Shown here: positions 8,677-62,927 of the stretch, in pieces
Numbering within the stretch: position 1 is the first letter of the stretch
How the letters are laid out: each line of letters begins with the position of its first letter
Source: Thioalkalivibrio thiocyanodenitrificans ARhD 1
GTDB taxonomy: Bacteria > Pseudomonadota > Gammaproteobacteria > Ectothiorhodospirales > Ectothiorhodospiraceae
Direction: 5' to 3'
Length of the DNA: 64,000 nucleotides
NCBI RefSeq assembly: GCF_000378965.1
Contig: NZ_KB900536.1
Coordinates: 2,667,407-2,731,406 of the forward strand
Position numbers and translations under genes: made by a program
Notes under the pieces: generated by a model
What the model was told of the DNA's origin: nothing
Database searches by the model: none
What the model saw: the letters and a program-made list of their open reading frames with translations, nothing else

Positions 8677-9405
8677 ATGAATCGCCCGGATTTCAGAACG
8701 AGCTACGAAAGGCATACCAGCGAACTGGTCAGGGACCGTGACACGCAAAGCGCCATGAGCCAGGCGGTGGGCGGGAACTTCGAGGCGGTCGGCAGACTGG
8801 AGTGCGCGCTGCTGCTCCAGTACGGACTGGACAGATCGGATACCGTGATCGACGTCGGATGCGGCAGCGGCCGGCTGGGTTTTCAACTGCGGAACCGACT
8901 GGACGGCAGGTACGTGGGCATCGATGTCGTCAGGGACCTGTTCGAGTATGCGCAACGGATCTGTGAACGGCCCGACTGGTCGTTCTACGAAGCGCCGGGG
9001 CTGTCGATCCCCGAGGAGAGCGGCTCGGCGGACTTCGTCTGCTTCTTCTCCGTGTTCACCCATCTCCTGCACGAAGAGTCCTACAGGTATTTGGCGGAGG
9101 CGGCCCGGGTGGTCAAGCCGAAAGGCAGGATCATCCTCTCGTTTCTGGAGTTCGCGATCCCGTCACACTGGACGGTGTTCGAGCAGGACCTGGCCGACCG
9201 GAGACCGGACAAGGTCCTGAACCAGTTCCTCAGTCGCGATGCCCTCGAAGCATGGGCCGCGCACCTGGGCCTGGAGATCGTGGATTTCCATGACGGGGAC
9301 AAGCCCCACATCAGGCTCGAAGACGTCGTGCGATGGGATGACGGGCGGGAGATGTCCGGGCATGGAAGCCTGGGGCAGTCCGTTTGCGTGCTCACCCGGC
9401 CATAG
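8677..9405 (+). CDS. class I SAM-dependent methyltransferase
   Basis: 242 residues from the ATG at 8677, which has CCGGAGA eight bases upstream; the frame stays open far upstream but without coding character. Motif I is VIDVGCGSGRLGFQL (residues about 53-67), followed by VGIDVVRDLFEYA, ADFVCFFSVFTHLLHEES and ARVVKPKGRIILSFLEF. The FSVFTHL pattern is common in methyltransferases of surface-polysaccharide loci, but this gene is isolated and its substrate is unknown. Confidence 0.85.
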   Translation: MNRPDFRTSYERHTSELVRDRDTQSAMSQAVGGNFEAVGRLECALLLQYGLDRSDTVIDVGCGSGRLGFQLRNRLDGRYVGIDVVRDLFEYAQRICERPDWSFYEAPGLSIPEESGSADFVCFFSVFTHLLHEESYRYLAEAARVVKPKGRIILSFLEFAIPSHWTVFEQDLADRRPDKVLNQFLSRDALEAWAAHLGLEIVDFHDGDKPHIRLEDVVRWDDGREMSGHGSLGQSVCVLTRP

Positions 9406-9487
9406 TCCCCGGCATTCGACGGGTGCAGGATCCGGAGCCGCTTTCATCCGTCGCTCGAGGGAAGCGGCCGCGGCCTTTTCGATCGGC

Positions 9488-9811
9488 TCACCCGATCTCC
9501 CGCCAGCCCTGGTGACCGCAACTGGTGCACTGGTAGAGCGCCTCGAACCCGCCGCCCTCCGCCTCGCGGATGTGGCCCTTCTGGAAGGTAAAGCCGCGCA
9601 GCGTGCACCGCGGGCATTTCACCACATCGTCGCGGGGCGCGCGGGGTGCGGACGGCTTCGGGCCCGGCTTCTGCTCGAGCGCCTGCTCGATCTCCCGGGT
9701 CAGTTCCCCGGCCAGTTTCTTCGCGGCCTCCGCATTGCCTGCATCCGCCAACCGTGCAAGTTCGGCGATCCGCTCCCTGACGGAGTTCAGTACCGACGAG
9801 GTATCGGCCAT
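9488..9811 (-). CDS. small zinc-ribbon protein
   Basis: 107 residues. The N-terminal half is a predicted helix (VLNSVRERIAELARLAD to REIEQALEQK), followed by a proline-rich linker. The C-terminus has two Cys pairs, KCPRC and QCTSCGHQGW, forming a probable zinc ribbon. The start at 9811 was chosen because GCAGGAG precedes it. The TSCGHQGWREIG ending resembles zinc-ribbon tails of nucleic-acid binding proteins. Function unknown. Confidence 0.8.
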   Translation of the reverse strand: MADTSSVLNSVRERIAELARLADAGNAEAAKKLAGELTREIEQALEQKPGPKPSAPRAPRDDVVKCPRCTLRGFTFQKGHIREAEGGGFEALYQCTSCGHQGWREIG

Positions 9812-10074
9812 GGGGTTCTCCTGCTGCTCGATGGCTGTTGTTTTCCCGACCGTCCCGGTGGGGCCCTCTCCACAGTGTACCTGCTTGACGGCGCCGAAGA
9901 ACCGGGTCGGGGCGCAGTTTCCCGGCAGGGTGAAGCGCGGTTTGGCGCGCGTTCCTGATCGACCGGCCACGGTTCTGCCCGTCACCGTCGTCCGGGCAAA
10001 GGCAGCGCGCGCGATGCATCCGTTGGCATGACAGCCGAATGTGCTCTGCCCCGGGTTTCCGGGATACTGTGCGC

Positions 10075-10914
10075 ATGAAGGTCCTTCTTCCGCTCCTGGC
10101 CGTCCCGGGGATTGTCGTCGCCGCGCTCCTGGTGCTGCGGGTACTGGATTGGCGCGCGGATCGGGCTGCGTGGGCGCGGCTGGCGGCCCTGCAGCCCGCG
10201 CAACCTCCGACGTACGACCCGGAATCCGTGGCGCAACTGCCGGAGCCGGCGCGGCGGTTTTTCAACTTCGCCATCACCCCGGGGACACCCCTGTTGCCGG
10301 TGGCCGAGATCGGGATGGGCGGCGAGTTCAGTCTCGGCACCCGGGAAAAGCCGAACTACCGGACGATGGAAGCGCGCCAGATCCTGGCCGCTCCCCACGG
10401 GTTCGTCTGGACGTTGCGTTTGCCGGGGCTCGTGCCGGTTTCCGGATCGGATTCGGCCGGCTGGACGCGGTTTCGCATATACGGCCTGATCCCCGTGGCG
10501 CGGTTGGGCGGCAATCCGGATCACGCCCGATCCGCCTATGGCAGGTATGTGGCCGAGTCGGTGTTCTGGACGCCGGCGGCATTGCTGCCGGGGCCGGGGA
10601 TCTTCTGGGAGGAGGTGGCTGCGAACACCGCCCGCGTCACCGTGAATCATGAGGGCCTTTCACAGGCGGTGGACGTCACGGTGGACGCCGAGGGCCGACC
10701 GGTCGAGGTCTCTTTCATGCGCTGGAGCAATGCCAACCCCGACAGGGAATACCGGTTTCAGCCCTTCGGCGGAACGCTCTCGGATTTTCGCGAGGTGCAA
10801 GGGTATCGTCTGCCGTTTCGGGTGGAAGGCGGCAACATGTTCGGTACCGGCGCCTATTTCCCGTTCTTCAGGGCCGAGGTTGCCGCCATCCGTTTTCCCC
10901 GGCCCGGTGAATGA
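10075..10914 (+). CDS. membrane-anchored conserved protein of the DUF6544/DUF6920 type
   Basis: 279 residues. An N-terminal hydrophobic helix (LLPLLAVPGIVVAALLVL) is followed by a globular domain, probably periplasmic. The series FSLGTREKPNYRTMEARQILA, ESVFWTPAALLPG, WEEV and PFRVEGGNMFGTGAYFPFFRAEV is typical of a conserved family of unknown function. The start at 10075 places the helix at the N-terminus; a GTG further upstream lacks support. It is divergent from the zinc-ribbon gene and is followed by family A repeats. Confidence 0.78.
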   Translation: MKVLLPLLAVPGIVVAALLVLRVLDWRADRAAWARLAALQPAQPPTYDPESVAQLPEPARRFFNFAITPGTPLLPVAEIGMGGEFSLGTREKPNYRTMEARQILAAPHGFVWTLRLPGLVPVSGSDSAGWTRFRIYGLIPVARLGGNPDHARSAYGRYVAESVFWTPAALLPGPGIFWEEVAANTARVTVNHEGLSQAVDVTVDAEGRPVEVSFMRWSNANPDREYRFQPFGGTLSDFREVQGYRLPFRVEGGNMFGTGAYFPFFRAEVAAIRFPRPGE

Positions 10915-38815: not shown

Positions 38816-38845
38816 TTCCCTGACCCCGCTTCTCCAGGCGTGAAT

Positions 38846-39658
38846 ATGCCCCTGCCTTCCCCCGTGAATGCCGTCGCCCTCCTGTGGATCCACAGGCGCT
38901 TCGTCTGGTCGCTGACCCTGACCGGCGTGTCATCACGGTACCGTACCTCCTGGTTCGGGCTGTTCTGGCCGGTCATTCACCCCGTGCTCCTGATCGGCGT
39001 GTTCACGTTCGTGTTCGCCTACGTCATGCCGCTGCGGTGGGTGTCGGAGGAGTCCGGCGGCGTCGGCTTCCCGCTGTTCCTGTACTCCGGCTTTCTCGTG
39101 TTCACCTTCTTCGCCGACGTCGTTTCGCGCGCGCCCACGCTGGTGCTGGAGAACACCAACCTGGTCAAGAAGGTGGTCTTCCCGCTGGAGGTGCTGGCCA
39201 TGGTGTCCGCCTGCACGTCGCTGCTGTTCTTCGCCGTCAACCTGGGCGTGTTCTCGGTGTTCCTGGCGCTGCTCGGGCCGGGCCTGCCGTGGTTCACCCC
39301 CGTGCTGCTGGGGCTGTTCATCCCGTTCGCCCTGTTCCTGATCGGCGTGGCCTGGTTCCTCTCCGCGCTGACCGTCTATGTGCGCGACGTGACCCACGTG
39401 ATCGGCATCTTCGTTACGGCGATGATGTTCTTCTCGCCGGTGTTCTATCCGCTCTCGTCCGCGCCGGAACCGGTGCGGGCCGCCCTGTCCCTGAGCCCCC
39501 TGACCATCGTCATCGAGGGGATCCGCGCGGTGGCCTTCGACCATGTCCTGCCGGACGGCGGCGACATGCTGATCCTGTGGATCGGCTCGCTGGCGGTGTT
39601 CTACCTTGGCTACCTGTGGTTCCAGCGCGTGAAGGAGGGATTCTCGGATGTCCTCTGA
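38846..39658 (+). CDS. wzm: ABC-2 type polysaccharide export permease (Wzm family)
   Basis: 270 residues with six predicted membrane helices and the family features RYRTSWFGLFWPVIHPVLLI near the N-terminus and VTAMMFFSPVFYPLSSAPEP near the C-terminus. Together with the ATPase it moves lipid-linked polysaccharide or O-antigen across the inner membrane. Its end overlaps the ATPase gene by 11 bases. A GTG at 38840 is an alternative start two codons upstream. Confidence 0.92.
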   Translation: MPLPSPVNAVALLWIHRRFVWSLTLTGVSSRYRTSWFGLFWPVIHPVLLIGVFTFVFAYVMPLRWVSEESGGVGFPLFLYSGFLVFTFFADVVSRAPTLVLENTNLVKKVVFPLEVLAMVSACTSLLFFAVNLGVFSVFLALLGPGLPWFTPVLLGLFIPFALFLIGVAWFLSALTVYVRDVTHVIGIFVTAMMFFSPVFYPLSSAPEPVRAALSLSPLTIVIEGIRAVAFDHVLPDGGDMLILWIGSLAVFYLGYLWFQRVKEGFSDVL

Positions 39659-40883
39659 GCCGGTGCTCGCGGTCGAGGGCCTGACCAAGTGCTATCCGGC
39701 CCACGATCACCCCAAGCAGCGCCTGATGCAGCTCCTGCTCGGGCGGCGCGGCCCCGCGCCGACGCCTCGCTGCGCGCTTCGCGACGTCTCGTTCTCGCTC
39801 AGGCGCGGCGAGATCCTGGGCGTTATCGGCCCCAACGGCGCGGGCAAGTCGACCCTGCTGCAGCTCATCGCGGGCACGCTGCGGCCCACTGCGGGATCGG
39901 TGCACATCAACGGCCGGGTCACCGCGCTGCTGGAACTGGGCGCGGGCGTCGATCCGGAGATGACCGGCGTCGAGAACATCTTTCTCATGGGCACCACCTA
40001 CGGTCTTCCCCGCGAGGCGGTGGAGGAGCGCCTGGCGGAGATCATCCGCTTCTCGGAACTGGGCACGTTCATCGACAGCCCGGTCAAGACCTACTCCTCC
40101 GGCATGTTCGTGCGCCTGGCGTTCTCCGTGTCCACCGCCATGGAGCCGGATATCCTGATCGTCGACGAGGCGCTCTCGGTGGGCGACGTGGGTTTCCAGG
40201 CCAAGTGTCTCGACCGGCTGGAGCAGTTGATCGACGGAGGTTCCAGCATTCTGCTGGCGTCGCACGATCTGCAACTCATCAAGAACTACTGCACGGAGGC
40301 CATCTGCCTGGATCACGGAGAGATCGTCGCCAGCGGAAACCCGGAACCGGTGGTGGAGCGCTACTATTTCCTTATGCGTACCCGCAACCAGCAGGGCCAG
40401 GAAAGCCTGACCTGGTCCGCCCCCAACCCCGAGGCCGGGGTTCGTTTCGCCAGTGACCGCGGCGCCATTGAGTCAGTGGAGATCAAGCGTGCCGGCGAGA
40501 GCGTGTCGTTTCAGACGGGAGAAGAGGTGACTGTGTGCGTGCGTGGGCATTTGGAGCCGGCTCGCTGCGCCAGTCCGGCGGTTTCAGTCATGCTGCGCGA
40601 TGTGCGTGGCTACAATCTCTACGGGCTGACAGCCAGCGCGGACAAGAGTCAGGTGCGTATCTCCGATTCGGGGACCTTTGAGAGCCGTTTCCGGATTCCT
40701 CTGAATTTCGCCGTCGGCCATTATTCACTCACGGTCCGGCTCGAGGATCGGCGAACCGACCGGATCATGACCCTGCTTGATAAGCGTGTCGGCATCTGTG
40801 GGTTCTCGGTGGAAGCGCCTGAGCGCACCTTCCTGGGTTCCGTGAACCTGTTTGGCCAGGTACTTGAACCCGAGAACTTCTGA
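39648..40883 (+). CDS. wzt: ABC transporter ATP-binding protein for polysaccharide export (Wzt family, with C-terminal extension)
   Basis: 411 residues. ABC domain to about 250: Walker A IGPNGAGKST, signature YSSGMFVRLAF, Walker B ILIVDEALSVGD, and H-loop LLASHD. The extra C-terminal region of about 150 residues (FRIPLNFAVGHYSLTVRLED) is the Wzt_C jelly-roll module that in O8/O9a-type exporters recognises the modified non-reducing end of the glycan. That implies the exported polymer carries a terminating or capping group, in keeping with the methyltransferases and sulfotransferases nearby. Confidence 0.95.
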   Translation: MSSEPVLAVEGLTKCYPAHDHPKQRLMQLLLGRRGPAPTPRCALRDVSFSLRRGEILGVIGPNGAGKSTLLQLIAGTLRPTAGSVHINGRVTALLELGAGVDPEMTGVENIFLMGTTYGLPREAVEERLAEIIRFSELGTFIDSPVKTYSSGMFVRLAFSVSTAMEPDILIVDEALSVGDVGFQAKCLDRLEQLIDGGSSILLASHDLQLIKNYCTEAICLDHGEIVASGNPEPVVERYYFLMRTRNQQGQESLTWSAPNPEAGVRFASDRGAIESVEIKRAGESVSFQTGEEVTVCVRGHLEPARCASPAVSVMLRDVRGYNLYGLTASADKSQVRISDSGTFESRFRIPLNFAVGHYSLTVRLEDRRTDRIMTLLDKRVGICGFSVEAPERTFLGSVNLFGQVLEPENF

Positions 40884-41006
40884 GCACGTGGTGCAGCCGG
40901 CGAAAGCGGCCAGACATGGATCGGCGCACGGCGCCTGTCGCCCCCCGCGCCGGCCGGCCTGCTCGCGCCCCCGAAGCTCCGCTCCGTGTGCCGGCGGGGT
41001 GTGGCC

Positions 41007-42380
41007 ATGAGCCGGCCCGTGGCTGTCCTGCTCCTGGGGCCGCATCGCTGCGGGACATCCTGCATGACGCAGCTGATCCATCGGGCGGGATTCCATGTGG
41101 GACGCGATGTGCTCGGGCCCCATGCCTGCAATCTCAACGGCCTGTGGGAGAACGAGGCCGTGGTCGCGTTCAACGAACGGCTCTTGTCCGCCCGTGGCTC
41201 CATGTGGTGCGACCCCGCGCCCGTTTCGCTGGAGGGCGCCCTGAATCCGGGCTCGCCCGAGCGGACGGCCCTGGCCGATCTGTTGTCTGAACAGTATCCC
41301 GCGGACAGGGATGTCGTGCTCAAGGATCCGCGCGTCTGCCGTCTGGCGCCCCTCTACACCGGGGCTCTGGAAGACCTGGGCTACCGCGTGCGTATCGTGG
41401 TCGCCCTGCGTCACCCGGGCGAAAGCGCCGAGTCCCTGTACCGGCGTGACGGGATGCCCCGGGGCGTGGGCCACGCGCTCTGGGTCGGCCACATGCTCGC
41501 TGCCCTGGATGCAACGGCCGGCCTCGATGCCACGGTCATCTCGTATGACGAGCTATTGCACGGCGGGGAGGTGCCGGTGCGCAATCTGGCCTCCTGGCTG
41601 CTCGATGACCGCACGCCCTCCGCCGACCTGATCGATGCCCTGATGGCGTGCATAGACCCCTCGCTCTACCACAGCCGTTCCGAGCGGCAGCACGGCGAAG
41701 GAGCAGGGGGGGCGATTCAGCAACTTGCCCTGCACATCCACGAGGGGCTCGTTCGCCGGGGCGGAGCGCTCCCCGAGCCCGCTGAACTGCGTGTCTGGCG
41801 GGAACGCTACGGGCGGCTGGTGGCGGAGCATGGCTGGTCGCACCGGCCCCGTCAGCTTGTGCTCCATGATGCGCCGGACCTTTCCGGATCCACATTGTCC
41901 GATGTGCTTGATTGCGTCCAGGGTTCGTCATCGACCGGGGTTGTTCTCGTGCGTGACGGTGCCGAGGACGGCTCCGTTGACCGTCGAATCGAAGATGCGG
42001 CAACGGCCGGGCACCTGGCGCTCTTCTACAATCTTTGCGATCGCGGGGAGGCCGCCAGCCTCGTGCGCGGACTCTCACTTTGCGGAGGGCGCGGCGCGCT
42101 CCTCTTGCGGCGAAGCGCGTGGCGGCGCGTCTCGTTCTGGATCGATTGGCTTGAACGGGATGGCGCGGATGCCGGGCCGGTGGTTTCCTGGTATCCCAAG
42201 GACCGTCCCCCGGGGCGGGCCGAACCCGAGGCCCTGTATGTTCCGGGTTCCGTGGCGGGTCGGACAGACCCTTGGCCGCAAGTGGCGGAGGGCGCGGATG
42301 CCCTGAACGCCCTGATCCGGGCCGTGGAGGGTGCGGGTGCTCGCGTCATCCAGATTGACACCGGTCCCGGGGATGAATGA
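41007..42380 (+). CDS. sulfotransferase-family protein with additional C-terminal domain
   Basis: 457 residues. Residues about 5-20 (VAVLLLGPHRCGTSCMTQLI) form the PAPS 5'-phosphosulfate loop, and IVVALRHPGESAESLYRRDG near 130 is the 3'-phosphate region. The second half (from about 285) has strands and an ALLLRRSAWRRVSFWIDWLE segment that recalls a glycosyltransferase accessory domain; its identity is uncertain. Start chosen at ATG 41007 instead of 40986. It probably sulfates the glycan exported by the adjacent transporter. Confidence 0.8.
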   Translation: MSRPVAVLLLGPHRCGTSCMTQLIHRAGFHVGRDVLGPHACNLNGLWENEAVVAFNERLLSARGSMWCDPAPVSLEGALNPGSPERTALADLLSEQYPADRDVVLKDPRVCRLAPLYTGALEDLGYRVRIVVALRHPGESAESLYRRDGMPRGVGHALWVGHMLAALDATAGLDATVISYDELLHGGEVPVRNLASWLLDDRTPSADLIDALMACIDPSLYHSRSERQHGEGAGGAIQQLALHIHEGLVRRGGALPEPAELRVWRERYGRLVAEHGWSHRPRQLVLHDAPDLSGSTLSDVLDCVQGSSSTGVVLVRDGAEDGSVDRRIEDAATAGHLALFYNLCDRGEAASLVRGLSLCGGRGALLLRRSAWRRVSFWIDWLERDGADAGPVVSWYPKDRPPGRAEPEALYVPGSVAGRTDPWPQVAEGADALNALIRAVEGAGARVIQIDTGPGDE

Positions 42381-42465: not shown

Positions 42466-43761
42466 TTACTTGTGGCAGATCGCCACACACCGCTCCGGGG
42501 ACAGCGGGGACGGTTCAAAGGTGATTTTCGAGAACAGCGCGGTATGGTCGAGCAGTATGCGCTCGATCGCCGGCGGCGAGAACAGAAAGGTCTGATCCTG
42601 TGAGGTAAGCAGGCTGACGCCGATCAGCGGCAGGTCGGGGTCAATCGCGGACCGCTCCGGGAGGGTCGCGCGAAACTTGCTGTCCGACAGTGTCGGGAAT
42701 TCCACGATGAGCCGCTTTCTGCACAAACGGGCCAGGGTGAGGAGGGCGGATACGGGCTCCTTGACATGATGGATCACGTTGAGAAAGAGCACCGTGTCGA
42801 AGGATTCCTGCAGGGGGTCGGAGAAGATGTCCCGAAGGAGAAGCTCCGTTCTCATGCCCAGGATCTCCTTGAGGATGTTCGCCCCGATGAACCGATGCGG
42901 CTTCACCTCGGTTCCGACGACCCTTGACGCGCCCCGCTTCTCCGCCTCGAAACAGAAATACCCGTCGGCGCAGCCGACATCCAGAACGGATTGTCCGCTG
43001 AGATCATCACCCAGAAACCTGAGCGCGTCCCGTCTGTCATGACCGGATGTGCTCACGCCGGGGGCGAGCGTGACCCGCTGGTACTCAAACGGATGACGCT
43101 CCGTGATCGTCCGGATTTCCTCGTCCGAGTAGCGAACCGCCGGGTGGGATGCGAGAACACCGGTCATGTCCGTGGCGCTGGCCACCGGTGCGTACTGGCG
43201 GTCGGTTGAATCAAGGATTTCGAAGTCGATCCCCTGGTCCCGCAGGAAATCGACCCACTTGTGGTGAAAGGCGTCCAGATCCACCTGGCATAGCAACGCC
43301 AGGACGCGCTCCCGCGGGTAGGGGCCGGTGTCGACCCTGAAATGCGGTTCCACGCCTTCTCTGAGCAGCGCGCGCTTGATGATCTCGGATCGGTGTGTGG
43401 CAAGCAGATAGCCCTTGATCCGGTGGCGATGCTGCAACAGCAGCGCCAGGACCGGGTCCGTGAGGGGGGCCCTGTCGATGGCCGAGAAGTCGTTCTCATT
43501 GGCCCTGAACAGGTTGTAATGGACGATGCATTCCTGTCGGAGAAGTTCATCGGCCGTGCGCGGCCCAATCTCCGGTGCGATGATCACCGGAAGGTCCCGC
43601 CACACGCCCGATCGTATTCTCGATTCGATGAACGAGGATTTGCCGGCGCTGGAGACACCCATGACCAGGTGAATAACACCCTCATCGTCCGATTGCTCCC
43701 GCGGACCTTGCCCCGTGCCCCTTCGGGCGGACAGTCGATTGATCAGATGACGCAGGTTCAT
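42466..43761 (-). CDS. fusion of P-loop NTPase/kinase domain and SAM-dependent methyltransferase
   Basis: 431 residues. The N-terminal half has a Walker A GVSSAGKSS at residues 35-43 and a fold like small kinases or sulfotransferases (LPVIIAPEIGPRTADELLRQ, IHYNLF-type, LLATHRSEIIKRALLREGV). The C-terminal half from about 240 is a class I methyltransferase: SVLDVGCADGYFCFEAEKRG, VVGTEVKPHRFIGANILKEI, DTVLFLNVIHHVKEPVSALL. It ends SPERCVAICHK. The ATG at 43761 follows a region that is noncoding in this frame. It forms a minus-strand pair with the sulfotransferase upstream, so modification of the same glycan or a lipid carrier is likely. The kinase-type half may phosphorylate a sugar; this is inference. 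Confidence 0.82.
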   Translation of the reverse strand: MNLRHLINRLSARRGTGQGPREQSDDEGVIHLVMGVSSAGKSSFIESRIRSGVWRDLPVIIAPEIGPRTADELLRQECIVHYNLFRANENDFSAIDRAPLTDPVLALLLQHRHRIKGYLLATHRSEIIKRALLREGVEPHFRVDTGPYPRERVLALLCQVDLDAFHHKWVDFLRDQGIDFEILDSTDRQYAPVASATDMTGVLASHPAVRYSDEEIRTITERHPFEYQRVTLAPGVSTSGHDRRDALRFLGDDLSGQSVLDVGCADGYFCFEAEKRGASRVVGTEVKPHRFIGANILKEILGMRTELLLRDIFSDPLQESFDTVLFLNVIHHVKEPVSALLTLARLCRKRLIVEFPTLSDSKFRATLPERSAIDPDLPLIGVSLLTSQDQTFLFSPPAIERILLDHTALFSKITFEPSPLSPERCVAICHK

Positions 43762-43813
43762 GGGCGCGGTGGTCGCAGGTGTCTCGGGTGTGGATCCGGG
43801 AGGGCGGAGGGCG

Positions 43814-44578
43814 TCATTCCGGCATGTATCCGAAGCGCCCAAGCCCCTCGGCGCCCAGGGCTTGCAGTAGTCGCTGTTCCTCCGCGGGGCGTTGCCGCCA
43901 TCGGCCAACGCCTGGATGCATTCGGGAATGCCCCAGGAGTGCGCCACCGTGCCCCGAGGGGATCGCCAGGAAATCGGCCAGCATCTCCAGGGTCCGCGTG
44001 TTCTCCGAGAGCAGGTCCTCGTAGCGCAGCCGCAGGTAACGGTCGCCCATGCGCTGCTCACCGTAGTCGGCCGTACGAAGATTGGCGGCTTGCCAGAAGG
44101 CCAGGGATTGCTGCCACTGTGGCAGTAAACGCTGCTCGTCATCGAGAAGCGCCAATCCGTGCTTCTGGAGCTGGTTCTGGTTGGCGGAATAGGCCATGTC
44201 CCGCCCGTCGCGCACCACATGGAGAAAACGCAGCCCGGCAATCGCGTTGTCGAGCAAGGGGAGCAACAGCATGCTGCGAGGTGCCTTCCAACCCCAGGGT
44301 CCATGGTGTCCCGCGGGGAGGTCGTCATGAAATGTGGCGACCACGTCGAGCAGCTCGCGCCGCATGGCCTCTTCCCGGGAGTGGCTCAGCGTACCGGCCA
44401 AGTAGTCGGTAAGCCACCGTTCGTGAAAATCGTAGAAATCGATGGCGTCCAGCGTCTGGTTCAGCCTCGAACCGAGGTGGTAGCCCGCATGCTGGCACAT
44501 GAGGGCCACCAGGCGGGTTCCGGACCCGCCTGTGCCGGCAATGACCAGGGGAGGGGTGCGATAAGTTGCTCTTGTCAT
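43814..44578 (-). CDS. sulfotransferase-family protein
   Basis: 254 residues. PPLVIAGTGGSGTRLVALMC is the 5'-phosphosulfate loop and FLHVVRDGRDMAYSANQNQL the 3'-phosphate binding motif, both in correct order. The rest (GPWGWKAPRSMLLLPLLDNA, LRLRYEDLLSENTRTLEMLA) matches sulfotransferases of surface-polysaccharide clusters. The ATG at 44578 is preceded by a weak ribosome binding site. It is the first gene of a two-gene minus-strand unit, 52 bases before the P-loop/methyltransferase fusion. Confidence 0.88.
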   Translation of the reverse strand: MTRATYRTPPLVIAGTGGSGTRLVALMCQHAGYHLGSRLNQTLDAIDFYDFHERWLTDYLAGTLSHSREEAMRRELLDVVATFHDDLPAGHHGPWGWKAPRSMLLLPLLDNAIAGLRFLHVVRDGRDMAYSANQNQLQKHGLALLDDEQRLLPQWQQSLAFWQAANLRTADYGEQRMGDRYLRLRYEDLLSENTRTLEMLADFLAIPSGHGGALLGHSRMHPGVGRWRQRPAEEQRLLQALGAEGLGRFGYMPE

Positions 44579-45024: not shown

Positions 45025-46203
45025 ATGGGACTTGGTGGATCAGGCACGGGTGAAGCCGGGCACTCCGGAGGCAGACCGGTCATCGTGCACCTCCTGCACG
45101 GCGGCGGAGGCGGGCTGGAGGCAGTCGTGCGGATTCTGGCGGATCAGCTTGGGGCCGGGTTCGAGCACCACCTGCTGTTTGCCCATGCCGGGAACTGGCG
45201 GCTTGAGGGGCCGGATGGGGGGACGGTCCCGCTGCGGTTCGGCTGGTGGAACGGGCCTGACCGCGTGGTGCGCCGCCTGGGGGCGGCGTTTGTGCATGTG
45301 CATCACCTGCCGCAGGGGCTGCCTGGCCTGGAACGTCTGCGTGTCCCCTACGGGGTGACTGTGCACGACTTCCATCCGGTCTGCCCCCGGAACCATCTTG
45401 TGCCCCCGGCGGAGGTCTATTGCGGGGCTCCGGAGGATGTCGCACTCTGCCGGCGTTGCCTGGCCGCGAAGCCGCGCCTTCGGGTCGATCCGGTCCGCTG
45501 GCGGGCGCGCCACCGGGAGTTGCTGGAAAGCGCGCGGTTCGTGGCCGTGCCGAGCCGTTACGCGGGCGAGGTCCTCGCCCGGCACTGGCCGGAGTTGCGC
45601 TGCATTCACGTGCCTCATCCGTACCACCCCGCCGGGGCCCCCGACGAGGCGCCGGCGCAACCCGACGGGCAGGGCCTCTATCCGGTCGCGGTGGTTGGCG
45701 CATTGGGCCGGGAGAAGGGCGGCGAGATGCTGGAGCGCCTGGCGGCGCGGGCCGAGGCCCGGGAACTGCCCGTGCGGTTCGTGATGCTGGGGGATACCCA
45801 CCGCCTGGGCGGCCCGCAGAGTCTGTTCGGAGGACACCTGTTCGTGAACGGCAGTTACCGGCGCGAGGACCTGCCGGGCCTGCTGCGCGAGCACGGGGCC
45901 ATGCTGGCGGCCTTCCCGGCCATCGGCCCGGAGACCTTTTCGCTCACGCTTTCCGAGGTCTGGGCCAGCGGCCTGCCCGCCCTGGTGCCTGACTTCGGCG
46001 CCCTGGCGGAACGCGTCCGGGACGCGGGAGCGGGCTGGACCCTGGCGGACTGGCAGGATCCGGATGCCTGGCTGGATGCCCTGATGGAACGCTTGTCCGA
46101 CCCGCAGGCCCTGGCCCGCGCGGGCCGTGCCGCCCGAAATGCCGCGGCAGGTCCGGGCGAGGCGGATTACGGGGCTTTGTACCGGGAGGCGTTGGGGCTC
46201 TGA
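45025..46203 (+). CDS. GT4-type glycosyltransferase
   Basis: 392 residues. The N-terminal Rossmann half begins VIVHLLHGGGGGLEAVVRIL, typical of GT4 acceptor-side domains. A cysteine-bearing motif (VTVHDFHPVCPRNHLV, later CGAPEDVALCRRCL) precedes the donor-binding half with VVGALGREKGGEMLERLAAR and the E-X7-E region GPETFSLTLSEVWASGLPAL. The same modules reappear in the C-terminal half of the protein at 47441. It transfers a sugar from an activated donor in the cytoplasm. Linkage and donor unknown. Confidence 0.88.
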   Translation: MGLGGSGTGEAGHSGGRPVIVHLLHGGGGGLEAVVRILADQLGAGFEHHLLFAHAGNWRLEGPDGGTVPLRFGWWNGPDRVVRRLGAAFVHVHHLPQGLPGLERLRVPYGVTVHDFHPVCPRNHLVPPAEVYCGAPEDVALCRRCLAAKPRLRVDPVRWRARHRELLESARFVAVPSRYAGEVLARHWPELRCIHVPHPYHPAGAPDEAPAQPDGQGLYPVAVVGALGREKGGEMLERLAARAEARELPVRFVMLGDTHRLGGPQSLFGGHLFVNGSYRREDLPGLLREHGAMLAAFPAIGPETFSLTLSEVWASGLPALVPDFGALAERVRDAGAGWTLADWQDPDAWLDALMERLSDPQALARAGRAARNAAAGPGEADYGALYREALGL

Positions 46204-46281: not shown

Positions 46282-46626
46282 CTATGTAAAGATCTCCTCC
46301 ACCCGCCTGGCAGTCAGGATCCGTTCGGACCACACGAGCAGAGTGTTGGCATCCGCTTCCGCGATACGCGCACGGTGCACCTCGGCCGCCTCGGCCCCGA
46401 ACTTGCGCTCGATCAGCCGCAGCAGGACGGCGGCCTCGCCCTCCTTGCGGCCCTTCTCGCGGCCTTCCTCAATACCGACCCTGCGGCCTTCCTCGATGCC
46501 CTGCTGTTTCCAGTCTTTGGTCCATTCCTTTACACGCTCGGCCAGCATGCTGCGTACCTCCTGAAGATCCAACACCTGCTCAAAGTCTACACCCGGCACC
46601 CGCCCAGGCAACAACACCCGCTCGAT
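46282..46626 (-). pseudogene. 5'-truncated copy of Rpn-family nuclease-like gene (homologue at 61534-62586)
   Basis: The minus strand encodes RVLLPGRVPGVDFEQVLDLQ through KEWTKDWKQQGIEEGR to ILTARRVEEIFT, nearly identical to the last third of the intact gene at 61534-62586. Upstream of about 46626 the similarity stops and family A repeats begin. The catalytic N-terminal domain and the start codon are therefore missing. An open frame continues into the repeats to 46674, but that part is repeat-derived. This is a remnant of recombination between copies. Confidence 0.85.
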
Positions 46627-46635
46627 GGCACGCGC

Positions 46636-46796
46636 GTAGGAGCCCGCTCCCGCGGGCGATCCTGCCCAGGCCAAACCCCTTTCGCCCGGAGGACCGGGCT
46701 CCTACGCGCGTGCCTGGATCCCCTCTGTAGGAGCCCGCTCCCGCGGGCGATCCTGCCCAAACCAAAACCCTTTCGCCCGGAGGACCGGGCTCCTAC
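46636..46796. repeat. family A repeats, two inverted pairs
   Basis: GTAGGAGCCCGCTCCCGCGG and its partner TCGCCCGGAGGACCGGGCTC then CTAC occur twice, separated by GATCCTGCCCARRCCAAA and AAACCCTTT-type spacers. The unit is the same palindrome found at 10965, 24353, 26568 and 51727. It abuts the truncated Rpn-family gene. Confidence 0.9.
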
Positions 46797-47440: not shown

Positions 47441-49387
47441 ATGTCCGCATCACCAGCACCCTATTCCCCCAAGGTCGATGTCATCGTGCCGGTCTACCGT
47501 GATCCGGACGCCACCCGTGCGTGTATCGAGAGCGTGCTGGACGCGCCGGTGTCCACCCCCTTCCGCCTGGTGATCGTGGATGACGCCTCGCCGGACCCGG
47601 AACTGTCCGCATGGGTGGATGGCCTGGCCGGGCGGGAAGAGGTGGTGGTGTTGCGCAACGAGCGCAACCAGGGTTTCGTGCGCAGCGTCAATCGCGGCGT
47701 GGCCCTGCACACGGACCATGACGTGGTGCTGCTCAACAGCGACACCCGTGTCTTCGGGGACTGGCTGGACCGATTGCGACAGTGCGCCTACCGCGAGCGC
47801 GATACCGGCACCGTCACGCCGCTCACCAACAACGGCACCCTGGCCGGTTATCCCCGTTTCATGGCGGAAAATCCCGTCACGGACGCCGGGCAGGCCGCGG
47901 CGCTGGACGCGCTGGCCGCCCGGGTGAATGCCGGCCTGGACGAGGTCGTTCCCACGGCGGTGGGGTTCTGCATGTATATCCGGCGCGACTGCCTGGAGCA
48001 GACCGGGTTCTTCGACGCCCGGGTGTTCGGCCGAGGCTACGGCGAGGAGAGCGAGTTCTGCATGCGCGCGTCGGAACAGGGCTGGACGCACCGCCTGTGC
48101 GGCGACGTGTACGTACAGCACCTGGGCGGCGCATCCTTCGGGGAGGAGACCGAGGCCCTGAAGGCCGCGGCGGGCGAGGCCATGGACCGCCTGTGGCCGG
48201 ACTACGGGGAGCGCGTGGCGGCGTTCGTGCGTGACGATCCCGCCCGGCATCTGCGCCGCCGCCTGGACCTGGCCCGGCTCGCGGCCTCGCCCAGGGCGCG
48301 GGTGCTGTTCGTGACCCATCGCCAGGGCGGCGGCGTGGAGCGTCACTGCCGGGATCTGGCCGATTCGCTGCGCGATGACCTGGAGGTGCTGGCCCTCAAG
48401 CCGGACGACGACGGCTGGCTCCGGCTGGAGTGGCTGCGTGCCGGGGAGGAGATGGCGCTGTATTTCCATCTGCCCGGGGAGTATGACGCGCTGCGCGACA
48501 CCCTGCTGCGGCTGGGCGTCTCCCGGGTGCATGTGCACCACGTGATGGAGCATCCCCTGCAGGTGCTGCGCCTGCCCGCGGACCTGGGTGTGCCCATGGA
48601 CTTCACCCTGCACGACTACTACAGCATCTGCCCCCAGTACAACCTGACCGACGAACACGGCGAGTACTGCGGCGAGCCGGACAGCGAGGGCTGCGCCCGC
48701 TGCCTGGCCGTGCGTGCCGCGCCCTGGGGTTTGGACATCCATGCCTGGCGTTCCCTGTACCGGGGCCTGCTGAGCGGCGCGGGACGGGTCATCGCCCCCT
48801 CGGAGGATGTGCGCCGGCGGGTCCTCCGTTATGTGCCCGAGGCCTCCATCCGGGTGCTGCCCCACGTGGATGACAGCCCCGTCCGGCCCGTGCTGCGCCA
48901 CGAGGGCGAGGCCGATGACGGCGTCATCCGGGTGCTGGTGCTGGGCGTGATCAATCCCGCCAAGGGGGTGCGGCTGCTGGAGCGCTGCGCCTGGGACGCC
49001 CGGCGGCGGAACCTGCCGCTGCGCTTCATCGTGATCGGCTCCACGGAGACCGAGATCCGGGGGCTGGATCAGTTGCCGCTGGAATTCACCGGCTCCTACC
49101 GCCCGGAGGACCTGCCGGCCCGCATCGCGAAGACTCGGGGGCAGGTGTTCTTCTTCCCGAGCAGGGCCCCGGAGACATTTTCCTACACCCTCAGCGAAGC
49201 CCTGGACACGGGCCTGCCCCTGGCGGCGCCGGATCGTGGCGCCTTTCCGGAACGCACCCGCGGGCTGGACCGGGTCTGCCTGATGGATCCCGATGCCGAA
49301 CCCGGCGAGTGGAATGACCGCCTGATCCAGTTGGCGCGCATGGGCGTGTCCACCCGCCCGGTGCTGACGGAGGGCCGGGGACGATGA
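47441..49387 (+). CDS. bifunctional glycosyltransferase, GT2 domain fused to GT4-type domain
   Basis: 648 residues. Residues 10-260 are a GT2/GT-A domain: VDVIVPVYRDPDATRACIES, VIVDDASPDPELSAW, LLNSDTRVFGDWLDRL (DXD-type region), and RGYGEESEFCMRASEQGW. From about 287 a GT4-type domain starts (RVLFVTHRQGGGVERHCRDL), with FTLHDYYSICPQYNLTDEHG, a Cys-rich CGEPDSEGCARC and ETFSYTLSEALDTGLPLAAP. The second half is a paralogue of the protein at 45025. It overlaps the next gene by 4 bases (ATGA), indicating one operon. Confidence 0.9.
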   Translation: MSASPAPYSPKVDVIVPVYRDPDATRACIESVLDAPVSTPFRLVIVDDASPDPELSAWVDGLAGREEVVVLRNERNQGFVRSVNRGVALHTDHDVVLLNSDTRVFGDWLDRLRQCAYRERDTGTVTPLTNNGTLAGYPRFMAENPVTDAGQAAALDALAARVNAGLDEVVPTAVGFCMYIRRDCLEQTGFFDARVFGRGYGEESEFCMRASEQGWTHRLCGDVYVQHLGGASFGEETEALKAAAGEAMDRLWPDYGERVAAFVRDDPARHLRRRLDLARLAASPRARVLFVTHRQGGGVERHCRDLADSLRDDLEVLALKPDDDGWLRLEWLRAGEEMALYFHLPGEYDALRDTLLRLGVSRVHVHHVMEHPLQVLRLPADLGVPMDFTLHDYYSICPQYNLTDEHGEYCGEPDSEGCARCLAVRAAPWGLDIHAWRSLYRGLLSGAGRVIAPSEDVRRRVLRYVPEASIRVLPHVDDSPVRPVLRHEGEADDGVIRVLVLGVINPAKGVRLLERCAWDARRRNLPLRFIVIGSTETEIRGLDQLPLEFTGSYRPEDLPARIAKTRGQVFFFPSRAPETFSYTLSEALDTGLPLAAPDRGAFPERTRGLDRVCLMDPDAEPGEWNDRLIQLARMGVSTRPVLTEGRGR

Positions 49388-51657
49388 AGTCGGACGCCTA
49401 TCGGGAGGCCTACCTGGAGGGCGTCGAGACCGGTGCGCCGGCGGACGTGCAAGGCGCGCCGCTGCCGGCCGGCGGGCTCGCCCGCGCACGCTGTCATGGC
49501 CCCGTGGCATCCGGCGGTCCGCCGATCTCACTGTGCCGGCGCACGCAGGTCCTGGACGTGCTGGCGCGTACGCTGCCCCGGTCCGTCCACGAGATGGATG
49601 CGGAATCCCTGGAGCGGTGGCTGGCCGATCGACGCGGCCTGGAGGAGCGGGTGGAGGGTCTGGATGTCGAGGTCCGTGAAACCCGCCGGGCGCTGGAAGA
49701 CACGCGCCGGCTGCTGGAGGATCGCGAGCGCTTCCTGGATCGGGTGATCCAGTCCCCCAGCCTGCGAATCGGCAAGGCCGTCGTCGCCCCCCTGCGCGCC
49801 GCGCGGCCGGTGCTGGCAGGCCTGCGGCAGGTGCCCGGCCTGCTGCGGCGGGGGGAGTTCCGGGCCCTGGTCCGGATGCCGTGGATCCGTGGCGATTCCA
49901 CCGGAGACGTGGATTACCGGCTGTGGGTGGAGCGCCACGGACGCCTCGGTGCCGCACGGCGGGCGGCCATGGAGCGGCGCTGGCCACAGTTGCCGCACCA
50001 GCCCCTGATCTCCGTGCTGATGCCCGTCTACAACACGGATCCGGCGCTGCTGAACGAGGCGGTGCAGTCAGTGCTGGCGCAGGTCTACACCCGCTGGGAA
50101 CTGGTGGTGGCGGATGATGCCTCCACCTCGCCCGCGACGCGTGCGGCCCTCGACGGGATCGAGTCGCTGGATGCGCGGATCCGGGTGATTCGCCGCCCCG
50201 ACAACGGGCATATCTCCGAGGCCTCCAACACTGCCCTGGATGCGGCCGGGGGCGAATGGGTCGGCCTGCTGGACCACGACGACCTGCTGGCGCCGGATGC
50301 CCTGTACTGGATGGTGGAGGAGATCAACGCCTATCCGGATTGTGGCTTCATCTACTCCGATGAGGACAAGATCTCGGAGACGGGGACGCGACGGGATCCG
50401 TGCTTCAAGCCGGACTGGAATCCCGACCTGCTGCGTTCCCAGAATTACATCAACCACTTCTCCCTGTACCGCGGGGACCTGCTGCGCGAGGCGGGCGGAT
50501 TCCGCGCGGGATTCGAGGGGGCCCAGGATTACGACCTGGTGCTGCGCATCACCGAAGGGCTCGATGCGGCGCGGATCCGGCATGTGCCGCGGATTCTCTA
50601 TCACTGGCGGGCGGTGCCCGCCAGCACCGCCAGCGCGGGCTCGGCCAAGCCGTACGCGGCGGAAGCCGCCCGGCGGGCGCTGGCGGAGCATCTGGCGCGC
50701 ACCGGGGACGGGGACGCCGCCGTGCTGCCGGCCCCCGGTTTCGAGGGCGTATGGTGGCGGGTCCGCTATCCCCTCCCGGCGCATCCGCCCCGGGTCTCCG
50801 TCATCATGCCCACCCGCAACGGACTGGACCTGCTGCTGGACAGTGTGTCCGGGGTGCTGGACCGGACCGACTACCCGGACGTCGAGCTGATTATCGTCGA
50901 CAACGGCAGCGACGATCCGGCCACCGTGCGGTACCTGGATTACCTGGCCGATGCCCGGGGGGTGAGGGTGATCCGGGATGACCGGCCGTTCAACTATTCC
51001 CAGCTCAACAACAGCGCCGTGGCGCACGCGAGCGGATCGGTCCTGGTGTTGATGAACAACGACATCAGGGTGATCAACCGGGACTGGCTCCGCGAGATGG
51101 TCAGCCACGTGCTGCGCCCGGAGGTGGGGCTGGTGGGTGCACGGCTGTCGTTCCCGGACGACCGGCTGCAGCACGCCGGCTGCGTGCTCGGAGTCGGCGG
51201 CGTGGCGGCACATGCCTTCCTCAACGAGCCCCGGGGCGCCCCCGGGTACTTCGGCCGCGCCGCCCTGATCCAGAACTACTCGGGGCTGACGGCCGCCTGC
51301 GTGGCGGTCCGCAAATCCGTCTTCGAGGAAGTGGGCGGACTCAACGAAACCGATCTGCGGATCGCCTTCAACGACATGGACCTGTGCCTCAGGATCCTCG
51401 ACGCCGGGTACCGCAACGTGTGGACCCCCTACGCGGATCTGTATCACGTGGAGTCGGCCACCAGGGGCTACGAGAATACCCCGGAGAAGCAGGCGCGTTT
51501 CCGCAGGGAGATCCGTTACATGAGGAAACAATGGGGCGCCCGGCTGGACGGCGATCCGGCCTACAACCCCAACCTCACTCTCACCGGCGACCCCTTCGCA
51601 CTGGCCGCGGAGCCGCGCTTGCCGCCGGATCCGTGGGAACGTCGGCCCGCCGGCTGA
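49384..51657 (+). CDS. large glycosyltransferase with N-terminal coiled coil and two GT2 domains
   Basis: 757 residues. A short N-terminal region is followed by a coiled coil (LEERVEGLDVEVRETRRALE, about residues 80-120), then two GT2 domains. GT2-1 begins at about 207 (LISVLMPVYNTDPALLNEAV, LDHDDLLAPDALYWMVEEIN) and GT2-2 at about 468 (PRVSVIMPTRNGLDLLLDSV, MNNDIRVINRDWLREMVSHV). Such double GT2 proteins with coiled coils build repeated polysaccharide backbones, and the coiled coil may act as a length ruler as in WbdD-type systems (established for other proteins, inferred here). Start overlaps the previous stop. Confidence 0.9.
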   Translation: MKSDAYREAYLEGVETGAPADVQGAPLPAGGLARARCHGPVASGGPPISLCRRTQVLDVLARTLPRSVHEMDAESLERWLADRRGLEERVEGLDVEVRETRRALEDTRRLLEDRERFLDRVIQSPSLRIGKAVVAPLRAARPVLAGLRQVPGLLRRGEFRALVRMPWIRGDSTGDVDYRLWVERHGRLGAARRAAMERRWPQLPHQPLISVLMPVYNTDPALLNEAVQSVLAQVYTRWELVVADDASTSPATRAALDGIESLDARIRVIRRPDNGHISEASNTALDAAGGEWVGLLDHDDLLAPDALYWMVEEINAYPDCGFIYSDEDKISETGTRRDPCFKPDWNPDLLRSQNYINHFSLYRGDLLREAGGFRAGFEGAQDYDLVLRITEGLDAARIRHVPRILYHWRAVPASTASAGSAKPYAAEAARRALAEHLARTGDGDAAVLPAPGFEGVWWRVRYPLPAHPPRVSVIMPTRNGLDLLLDSVSGVLDRTDYPDVELIIVDNGSDDPATVRYLDYLADARGVRVIRDDRPFNYSQLNNSAVAHASGSVLVLMNNDIRVINRDWLREMVSHVLRPEVGLVGARLSFPDDRLQHAGCVLGVGGVAAHAFLNEPRGAPGYFGRAALIQNYSGLTAACVAVRKSVFEEVGGLNETDLRIAFNDMDLCLRILDAGYRNVWTPYADLYHVESATRGYENTPEKQARFRREIRYMRKQWGARLDGDPAYNPNLTLTGDPFALAAEPRLPPDPWERRPAG

Positions 51658-61533: not shown

Positions 61534-62586
61534 CTACATAAAGATTTCCTCCGCCCGCTCGGCAGTGAGGATTCGTTCGGACCAGACCAGCAGGGTATCG
61601 GCGTCCGCTTCCGCGATGGGCACACGATATGCCTCGGCCGCCTCGGCACCGAACTTGCGCTCGATCTGGCGCAGCAGGACGGCGGCCTCGCCCTCCTTGC
61701 GGCCCTCCCTGCGGCCCTCCCTGCGGCCCTCCCTGCGGCCCTCCCTGCGGCCCTCCCTGCGGCCCTTCTCGCGGCCCTCCTTGCGGCCTTCCTCGATGCC
61801 CTGCTGTTTCCAGTCTTTGGTCCATTCCTTTACACGCTCGGCCAGCATGCTGCGTACCTCCTGAAGATCCAACACCTGCTCAAAGTCTACACCCGGCACC
61901 CGCCCCGGTAACAACACCCGCTTGATCCACACCGTGAAGCTCCTGCGAAGCCCCGTCTGTCCGGGCAAACCCAGCCAGTCCACCAACCGCGAGAGCACTT
62001 GCTCGATATCCCGCGGGCTCCGGCTGTTCTCCAACGCGAACAGCGCCGAGACCAGATTGCGCAGCTCCGGCAGGGGATCGTCCCGGTAGCGGCCCTCATC
62101 AAGCAGCAGGTAACGCATCCGCGGCCGGTAGCGCTCCAGACCACCCGGGATCTCCTCGATCAGATCCGAAACCTCAACCGCCGCCCTCCAGCGCCGGGAA
62201 CCGCTGTAGAGCACCACCGGTAATACCGGCGGCAGCCTTCCCGAGGGCGTCAACTGTCCACCCTTGCGCAGATCCTCGTAGAGCAGCCCCGCGTAGGTGA
62301 GCACCCGCAGCGCCATGAACGGATCGGGGCGGGACTGAAATTCCAGCAGCAGATAGATGTAGAGCCAGTGGTCGTCGCCCTGCCAACGGACCCGCCAGAC
62401 CACGTCGTCCTCGCGCTCGCGCAGGTCGTCGCTGACATAGCCGTCGCCGACACGGTGCAGCGTGGAGAAATCGAGCTTCTCGACCCACGGCTCGCATACA
62501 TAACCCCGGATCAGGTCGGCCACCATCTCCGGATGGCTGAACAGCAACTTGTATCCGTGGTCGTGTCCTTTGGATCTGCGGCCCAT
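61534..62586 (-). CDS. Rpn-family recombination-promoting nuclease/putative transposase (PD-(D/E)XK)
   Basis: 350 residues. GRRSKGHDHGYKLLFSHPEM opens the protein, and DDVVWRVRWQGDDHWLYIYL followed by LLEFQSRPDPFMALRVLTYA contains the Asp and ExQ catalytic pattern of this nuclease family. The C-terminal region is highly charged, with REGR tetrapeptide repeats at about 270-300 encoded by a 12-bp tandem array. AAGGAGG precedes the ATG. RpnA-type proteins promote RecA-independent recombination in E. coli. A truncated copy lies at 46282-46626. Confidence 0.88.
   Translation of the reverse strand: MGRRSKGHDHGYKLLFSHPEMVADLIRGYVCEPWVEKLDFSTLHRVGDGYVSDDLREREDDVVWRVRWQGDDHWLYIYLLLEFQSRPDPFMALRVLTYAGLLYEDLRKGGQLTPSGRLPPVLPVVLYSGSRRWRAAVEVSDLIEEIPGGLERYRPRMRYLLLDEGRYRDDPLPELRNLVSALFALENSRSPRDIEQVLSRLVDWLGLPGQTGLRRSFTVWIKRVLLPGRVPGVDFEQVLDLQEVRSMLAERVKEWTKDWKQQGIEEGRKEGREKGRREGRREGRREGRREGRREGRKEGEAAVLLRQIERKFGAEAAEAYRVPIAEADADTLLVWSERILTAERAEEIFM
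61689..61784. repeat. 12-bp tandem repeat (five perfect copies) inside the Rpn-family gene
   Basis: GGCCCTCCCTGC is repeated exactly five times at 61701-61760, with degenerate copies on both sides (61689-61700 and 61761-61784). On the coding strand it gives a repeating Arg-Glu-Gly-Arg tetrapeptide. Because the period is a multiple of three, changes in copy number keep the frame. The truncated copy at 46282 has none of the perfect units. Confidence 0.92.
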
Positions 62587-62927
62587 TCCATGGCCTCCTT
62601 CCGTGGCGGCGTGGCGTTGTGCCCGCAAGCATAGCGACCGGGGAGCCGTGTACTCAAGGCCGACGGATCCGCGGCGGCCACGGGTTGCCGCAACACCGTG
62701 GGCGAGGCGGCCGCGCCACGAATGGTGCGGCTCCACCCTTCGGCCCGTGGTCGGACCTCGTGCCGAAAGGGGTGAAGGTGGCCTTGTGCCAAGATGCAGC
62801 AGTGGTTCGCGACGATTCCATCCTCTGCCGGGGCGCCGGGAAAGGTACACTAGTGGCCTGTCGGACCCGTTACGATTGCCAGGACCGACAGGCGCCCAAG
62901 TCGATGAATTAAGGTCTCCAGCCCGGC
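62587..62927. other. intergenic region without recognised features
   Basis: About 340 bases between divergent genes. No repeat family A or B unit, terminator or clear promoter is seen. GTCTCCAGCCCGGC precedes the next start. Confidence 0.4.

Follow-up and report, generated by a model that had tools for sequence, protein, structure and literature searches.

Enzymes that carry a kinase and a methyltransferase on one polypeptide are already known as terminators of glycan chains, and they draw on two unrelated kinase types. A terminator of the WbdD type leaves a methyl-phosphate at the glycan's non-reducing end, and export depends on this group. WbdD, the terminator of Escherichia coli O8/O9a and Klebsiella pneumoniae O3, consists of a SAM-dependent methyltransferase, a eukaryotic-type kinase and a long coiled coil (PMC3482155). 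In the N-terminal terminator of K. pneumoniae O7 ORF6, a methyltransferase is joined to a previously unannotated kinase that resembles AmiN (aminoglycoside-kinase type), followed by a CBM and a coiled coil; orthologues are found in alpha- and gammaproteobacteria and cyanobacteria (PMC11231755). Known terminators reside in proteins with a coiled-coil ruler, and the C-terminal domain of Wzt reads the caps (PMC11231755, PMC3482155, PMC9445017). Zeta toxins and PezT, which are P-loop kinases, phosphorylate the sugar of the nucleotide sugar UDP-GlcNAc (PMC3062530).

The locus examined here lies in a glycan-export cluster within the window (the whole stretch of DNA that was analysed, 64,000 nucleotides), with the following features.

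38840..39658, forward strand: Wzm, ABC-2 polysaccharide exporter permease (ABC2_membrane, E 1e-19)
39648..40883, forward strand: Wzt, exporter ATPase with a C-terminal carbohydrate-binding domain (ABC_tran, Wzt_C; A. aeolicus Wzt)
40986..42380, forward strand: second sulfotransferase-like P-loop protein, directly downstream of wzt (phmmer; without a Pfam hit)
42466..43761, reverse strand: P-loop kinase-methyltransferase fusion CDS, 431 aa (ORF and translation; two-domain homologues in other phyla)
43141..43680, reverse strand: predicted P-loop kinase-fold domain of the fusion, residues ~28-207 (AlphaFold2 model, zeta toxin/adenylate kinase fold, conserved motifs)
42469..43089, reverse strand: class I methyltransferase domain of the fusion, residues ~225-431, SAM motif DVGCADGYF (Pfam/NCBIfam, methyltransferase tree)
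43814..44578, reverse strand: sulfotransferase (Sulfotransfer_3), directly upstream of the fusion (Pfam; gene pair also in loci L013 and L015)
45025..46203, forward strand: GT4 glycosyltransferase of the glycan cluster (Pfam Glycos_transf_1)
47441..49387, forward strand: GT2-GT4 bimodular glycosyltransferase (Pfam)
49384..51657, forward strand: GT2-GT2 bimodular glycosyltransferase (Pfam)

The fusion is a single open reading frame of 431 residues, starting at the ATG at 43761, in which a P-loop domain precedes a class I methyltransferase. The initial annotation had placed both on one polypeptide, and this is borne out by the reading frame, by a Walker A motif (GVSSAGKSS, residues 35-43) that is conserved among homologues, and by the Pfam methyltransferase matches. 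The frame stays open upstream to 44328, but this extension runs into the sulfotransferase gene, which is read in a different frame, and it is not taken as coding. As homologues with both domains occur in other phyla at 42-51% identity, the fusion is more than a chance joining. Pfam matches in the fusion are to methyltransferases only (Methyltransf_9/23/31/11, E 2e-11 to 1e-9, residues ~247-359), the Methyltransf_9 score being 43.6 bits against a gathering threshold of 23.8, and the SAM motif is glycine-rich. The nearest profile families to this domain are the CmoB/Methyltransf_9 and TIGR04290 methyltransferases, but scores that fall far short of NCBIfam's curated cut-offs (67 bits against 300 for TIGR04290) rule out an identity as CmoB or TIGR04290.

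Sequence searches with the N-terminal domain gave nothing usable in Pfam, NCBIfam, PHROGs, PDB sequences, plasmids or phages. AlphaFold2 on the single full-length sequence was useless (pLDDT 35.9), and a model of the P-loop domain was built from nine aligned homologues, covering residues 24-232; this model is confident (pLDDT 84.5, pTM 0.84). Its best structural match is zeta toxin 3q8x (Z 11.0 over 175 residues, 3.3 Å; Foldseek, VIA-align), and other matches are archaeal adenylate kinases (Z ~10), PezT (Z 10.0) and bacterial polynucleotide kinase (Z 9). The modelled N-terminal half adopts the fold of P-loop kinases and has a Walker A motif of the form GxxxxGK[S/T]. Structure prediction had been proposed in the initial annotation as a check on this half, with a DNA-binding ATPase or chaperone-type NTPase as the identities that would speak against a kinase; both are ruled out by the modelled fold. 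The resemblance to zeta toxin and PezT is one of fold: sequence identity is ~11%, the zeta catalytic Asp (D67/D66), which deprotonates the 3'-OH of the sugar, is not clearly conserved (the residues after strand 2 often read A-x-E, and the acid is not strictly kept), the fusion carries a methyltransferase, and no antitoxin gene was recognised with it, unlike zeta/PezT. From the model we infer that the domain may be an active kinase, and since zeta toxins act on the sugar of UDP-GlcNAc, the acceptor could plausibly be a sugar or a nucleotide sugar.

Like WbdD, the fusion combines a kinase-type domain and a SAM methyltransferase on one chain, and it too lies in an ABC-exported glycan cluster whose Wzt bears a C-terminal carbohydrate-binding domain. 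It differs from WbdD in domain order, in having a sulfotransferase partner, in lacking a coiled coil and in that the other 11 fusion genomes have no Wzt_C beside the fusion, and in the model its kinase-type domain has a Walker A P-loop and a zeta/adenylate-kinase fold in place of a eukaryotic-protein-kinase-like domain. The earlier statement that the kinase type is unlike that of WbdD is therefore upheld by the predicted fold. K. pneumoniae O7 ORF6 is likewise a methyltransferase and kinase on one chain, but its AmiN-like kinase, CBM and coiled coil have no counterpart in the fusion, whose kinase-type domain is of the P-loop type.

Single-sequence searches found no relatives of the N-terminal domain in 58 near-relative genomes, including those of the same family, and 369 and 398 genomes sampled from the class and phylum likewise gave none. 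A first genome contig scan with N-terminal peptides gave no match, and neither did viral contigs queried with hand-made pseudo-alignments and guessed motifs. Relatives were reached by pairing the fusion with a methyltransferase-only relative (L004) in a genome contig scan guided by the methyltransferase, which gave five two-domain relatives. Homologues are carried by two gammaproteobacterial MAGs (51% and 46% identity), by Moorena bouillonii (49%, with an in-frame TAA between the two domains), by a Chitinophagales MAG (42%) and by a Deltaproteobacteria MAG (42%, with ~600 bp of other DNA between the two domains). The same scan gave the opposite order, methyltransferase then P-loop, in two convergent Aestuariivirga copies and one Thermodesulfobacterium copy. 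Searching with a P-loop domain profile (A5) added a third Aestuariivirga copy, together with methyltransferase-kinase fusions from other members of the Aestuariivirga order. The profile matched 8 of 249 genomes of this order (G785 included) and 4 of 245 cyanobacterial genomes; among 243 genomes sampled from the window's own class it gave two weak extra matches only. Stand-alone P-loop domains occur in cyanobacteria and in Aestuariivirga's order, and those of Moorena and a second cyanobacterial genome have conserved neighbours (L074 7468-8217, L075 7585-8169).

The kinase-methyltransferase order is thus found in Gammaproteobacteria, Cyanobacteria, Bacteroidota and one Deltaproteobacterium, and the methyltransferase-kinase order in Alphaproteobacteria and one Thermodesulfobacterium. 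In the methyltransferase tree the former is a single clade spanning three phyla (support 99/94), which implies horizontal spread. The different kinase fold and the occurrence of both domain orders indicate that the fusion evolved independently of WbdD, so that the independent origin first suggested is a fair description; the fusion was assembled independently of K. pneumoniae O7 ORF6 as well. This bacterial family is rare and apparently undescribed, and the literature searched, mostly without subscription journals, held no description of a kinase, methyltransferase and sulfotransferase system.

The sulfotransferase gene (Sulfotransfer_3 E 9e-11, 42.9 bits against a gathering threshold of 27) lies ~50 bp upstream of the fusion on the same strand, and from this layout the two are likely co-transcribed as a probable operon. 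Each of the 12 fusion loci (the window, L013-L019, L068, L069, L070 and L072) has a Pfam sulfotransferase, from one of three families, no more than ~1 kb from the fusion. This association is not circular, because it was the methyltransferase or the P-loop domain, and not the sulfotransferase, that led to the loci. Sulfotransferase genes are sparse in most fusion genomes (two each in G000, G780 and G782, counting two families), and if they were placed uniformly, one would fall within 2 kb with a probability of 0.002-0.012 per genome. Among 26 methyltransferase-only control loci (L020-L045) there was one sulfotransferase match, a weak one, compared with four of the four fusion loci outside the detector-building set (Fisher p 1.8e-4); these p-values are optimistic, since all four test loci belong to a single order and sulfotransferases may be concentrated in the same genomic islands, and the statistics ignore both such islands and shared descent. 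Chance adjacency is ruled out by the control loci together with the placement statistics.

We consider it probable, though well short of certain, that the fusion is a bifunctional modifier that works with the sulfotransferase in adding phosphate, methyl and sulfate groups to a glycan or glycolipid of the cell surface. The kinase domain would phosphorylate a sugar hydroxyl, on a free, nucleotide-linked or lipid-linked sugar; the methyltransferase would then place a methyl group on this phosphate or on the sugar itself; and sulfation of the same product by the sulfotransferase would yield an anionic, partly methylated decoration. In the window the modified product would probably be the glycan that the surrounding cluster makes for ABC export, altered either at its end or at sites within the chain. 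We infer the substrate, the order of the reactions and the joint action of the three enzymes on one molecule.

The initial annotation had instead seen the fusion as a chain-capping enzyme whose product is read by Wzt, which now appears unlikely. The Wzt C-terminal domain that it had placed at about 40400-40880 is indeed present (Wzt_C, E 5e-14, residues 266-400, ~40443-40847), and lies in a protein encoded 1.6 kb from the fusion whose closest solved structure is the cap-reading A. aeolicus Wzt (E 6e-71, with the alignment extending into the carbohydrate-binding domain; PMC9445017). Two unrelated kinase-methyltransferase terminators have been proven, in WbdD (PMC3482155) and K. pneumoniae O7 ORF6 (PMC11231755). 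In addition, the sister clade of the kinase-methyltransferase clade (support 93/80) includes stand-alone methyltransferases encoded next to wzm and wzt in Verrucomicrobia (L022 3340-6914, L024 4812-7704) and next to a wzt in a Chloroflexi MAG (L023 1-7188); these are candidate methyl-cap enzymes, and they favour a glycan-cap ancestry for the methyltransferase alone. Fusion homologues had been expected beside exporters of this type, their absence there counting against capping, and such absence is largely what was seen: a direct search for Wzt_C found it next to the fusion in one of the 12 fusion genomes, that of the window; it is absent altogether from eight and lies at least 35 kb away or on another contig in three. 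The wzm and wzt genes are on the opposite strand, converging on the fusion. No coiled-coil ruler was found in the fusion: the model (residues 24-232) has no long helix, crude scoring for heptads brought out no convincing stretch, and there is no room for a ruler because the two domains fill all 431 residues. The lid Trp of the A. aeolicus Wzt methyl pocket aligns with a Lys in the window Wzt, in a weak stretch of the alignment. Furthermore, the sulfotransferase-like gene at 40986-42380 follows wzt more directly than the fusion does; its product matches the Sulfotransfer_3-TPR protein next to the Moorena fusion (phmmer E 2e-14) and may be a better candidate for modifying the exported glycan. 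What the fusion family shares is the sulfotransferase neighbour, not capping beside Wzt. A broader version, in which a third independent, zeta-toxin-like kinase-methyltransferase class and its sulfotransferase would carry out an undescribed methyl-phosphate/sulfate modification that was recruited here as a cap read by Wzt, strikes us as improbable.

Several other features of the cluster and genome were observed. The GT2-GT2 protein has a coiled-coil-like N-terminal stretch (residues ~93-120, by a crude heptad score). The product of 61534-62850 is a YhgA-like putative transposase (PF04754). Within the glycan cluster, 46282-46674 encodes a fragment closely resembling its C-terminal part, a possible trace of mobile-element activity. 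Outside the window, an open frame of 727 residues encodes a second Wzt_C (G000:C1:982220-982639), and the organism may therefore have another ABC glycan exporter.

The product of the proposed modification could be a lipid, since two gammaproteobacterial MAGs have the operon-like order fusion, sulfotransferase, LpxL-like acyltransferase with no glycan cluster (L013 9986-13075, L015 10007-12355). Taken further, the unit would have a lipid or a small metabolite as its target, giving a glycolipid or nucleotide with sulfate, phosphate and methyl groups, its position in the window's glycan cluster being incidental to a horizontal insertion. The GC content of the fusion (0.61) and the sulfotransferase (0.64), both below the window's 0.67, and the lack of a relative in other genomes of the family fit such an insertion, but glycan genes lie near the fusion in the window, in Moorena and at several alphaproteobacterial loci (NeuB and glycosyltransferases in Moorena; a GT2 at L016 and a cytidylyltransferase at L070 among other fusion loci), and we think this account has little chance of being the right one. 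At L070, a fusion paralogue (9163-10290) has an apparently degraded SAM-binding motif and an intact P-loop, and a complete copy adjoins it on the other strand.

Conserved features of the P-loop domain, besides Walker A, are an HY[N/D]-hydrophobic-hydrophobic-R motif (HYNLFR in the window), KR.LLR, YP...LLC and the Trp of a KW pair. The HY[N/D] motif has Asn in the kinase-methyltransferase clade, which is the window's own, and Asp in most methyltransferase-kinase proteins. Aestuariivirga has three methyltransferase-kinase paralogues in ~13 kb (L018 9917-12577, L078 7475-8830), and the Walker A Lys is lost in two of them, the degenerate P-loops being those of L018b and L078; catalysis is therefore not needed in every copy in this alphaproteobacterium, suggesting that active and pseudokinase copies coexist. 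A domain that merely binds NTP or substrate to regulate the methyltransferase, or that supplies the sulfotransferase donor in the manner of an APS kinase, would suit the HYN in place of HYD, these degenerate P-loops and the constant sulfotransferase neighbour, but is a poor prospect given that most members keep a canonical Walker A and conserved basic lid-like residues, and that the nearest folds are kinases, with no APS kinase among the 50 structural matches listed.

These results carry a caution for annotation, in that a kinase-methyltransferase fusion next to Wzt is by itself no evidence for chain capping. Finding a third kinase fold joined to a methyltransferase, in either order, would mean that this combination has arisen repeatedly in evolution. 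That a sulfotransferase neighbours the fusion almost without exception suggests a modification pathway so far unrecognised in cyanobacteria and alpha- and gammaproteobacteria, for which the fusion and its sulfotransferase provide a concrete, testable gene pair.
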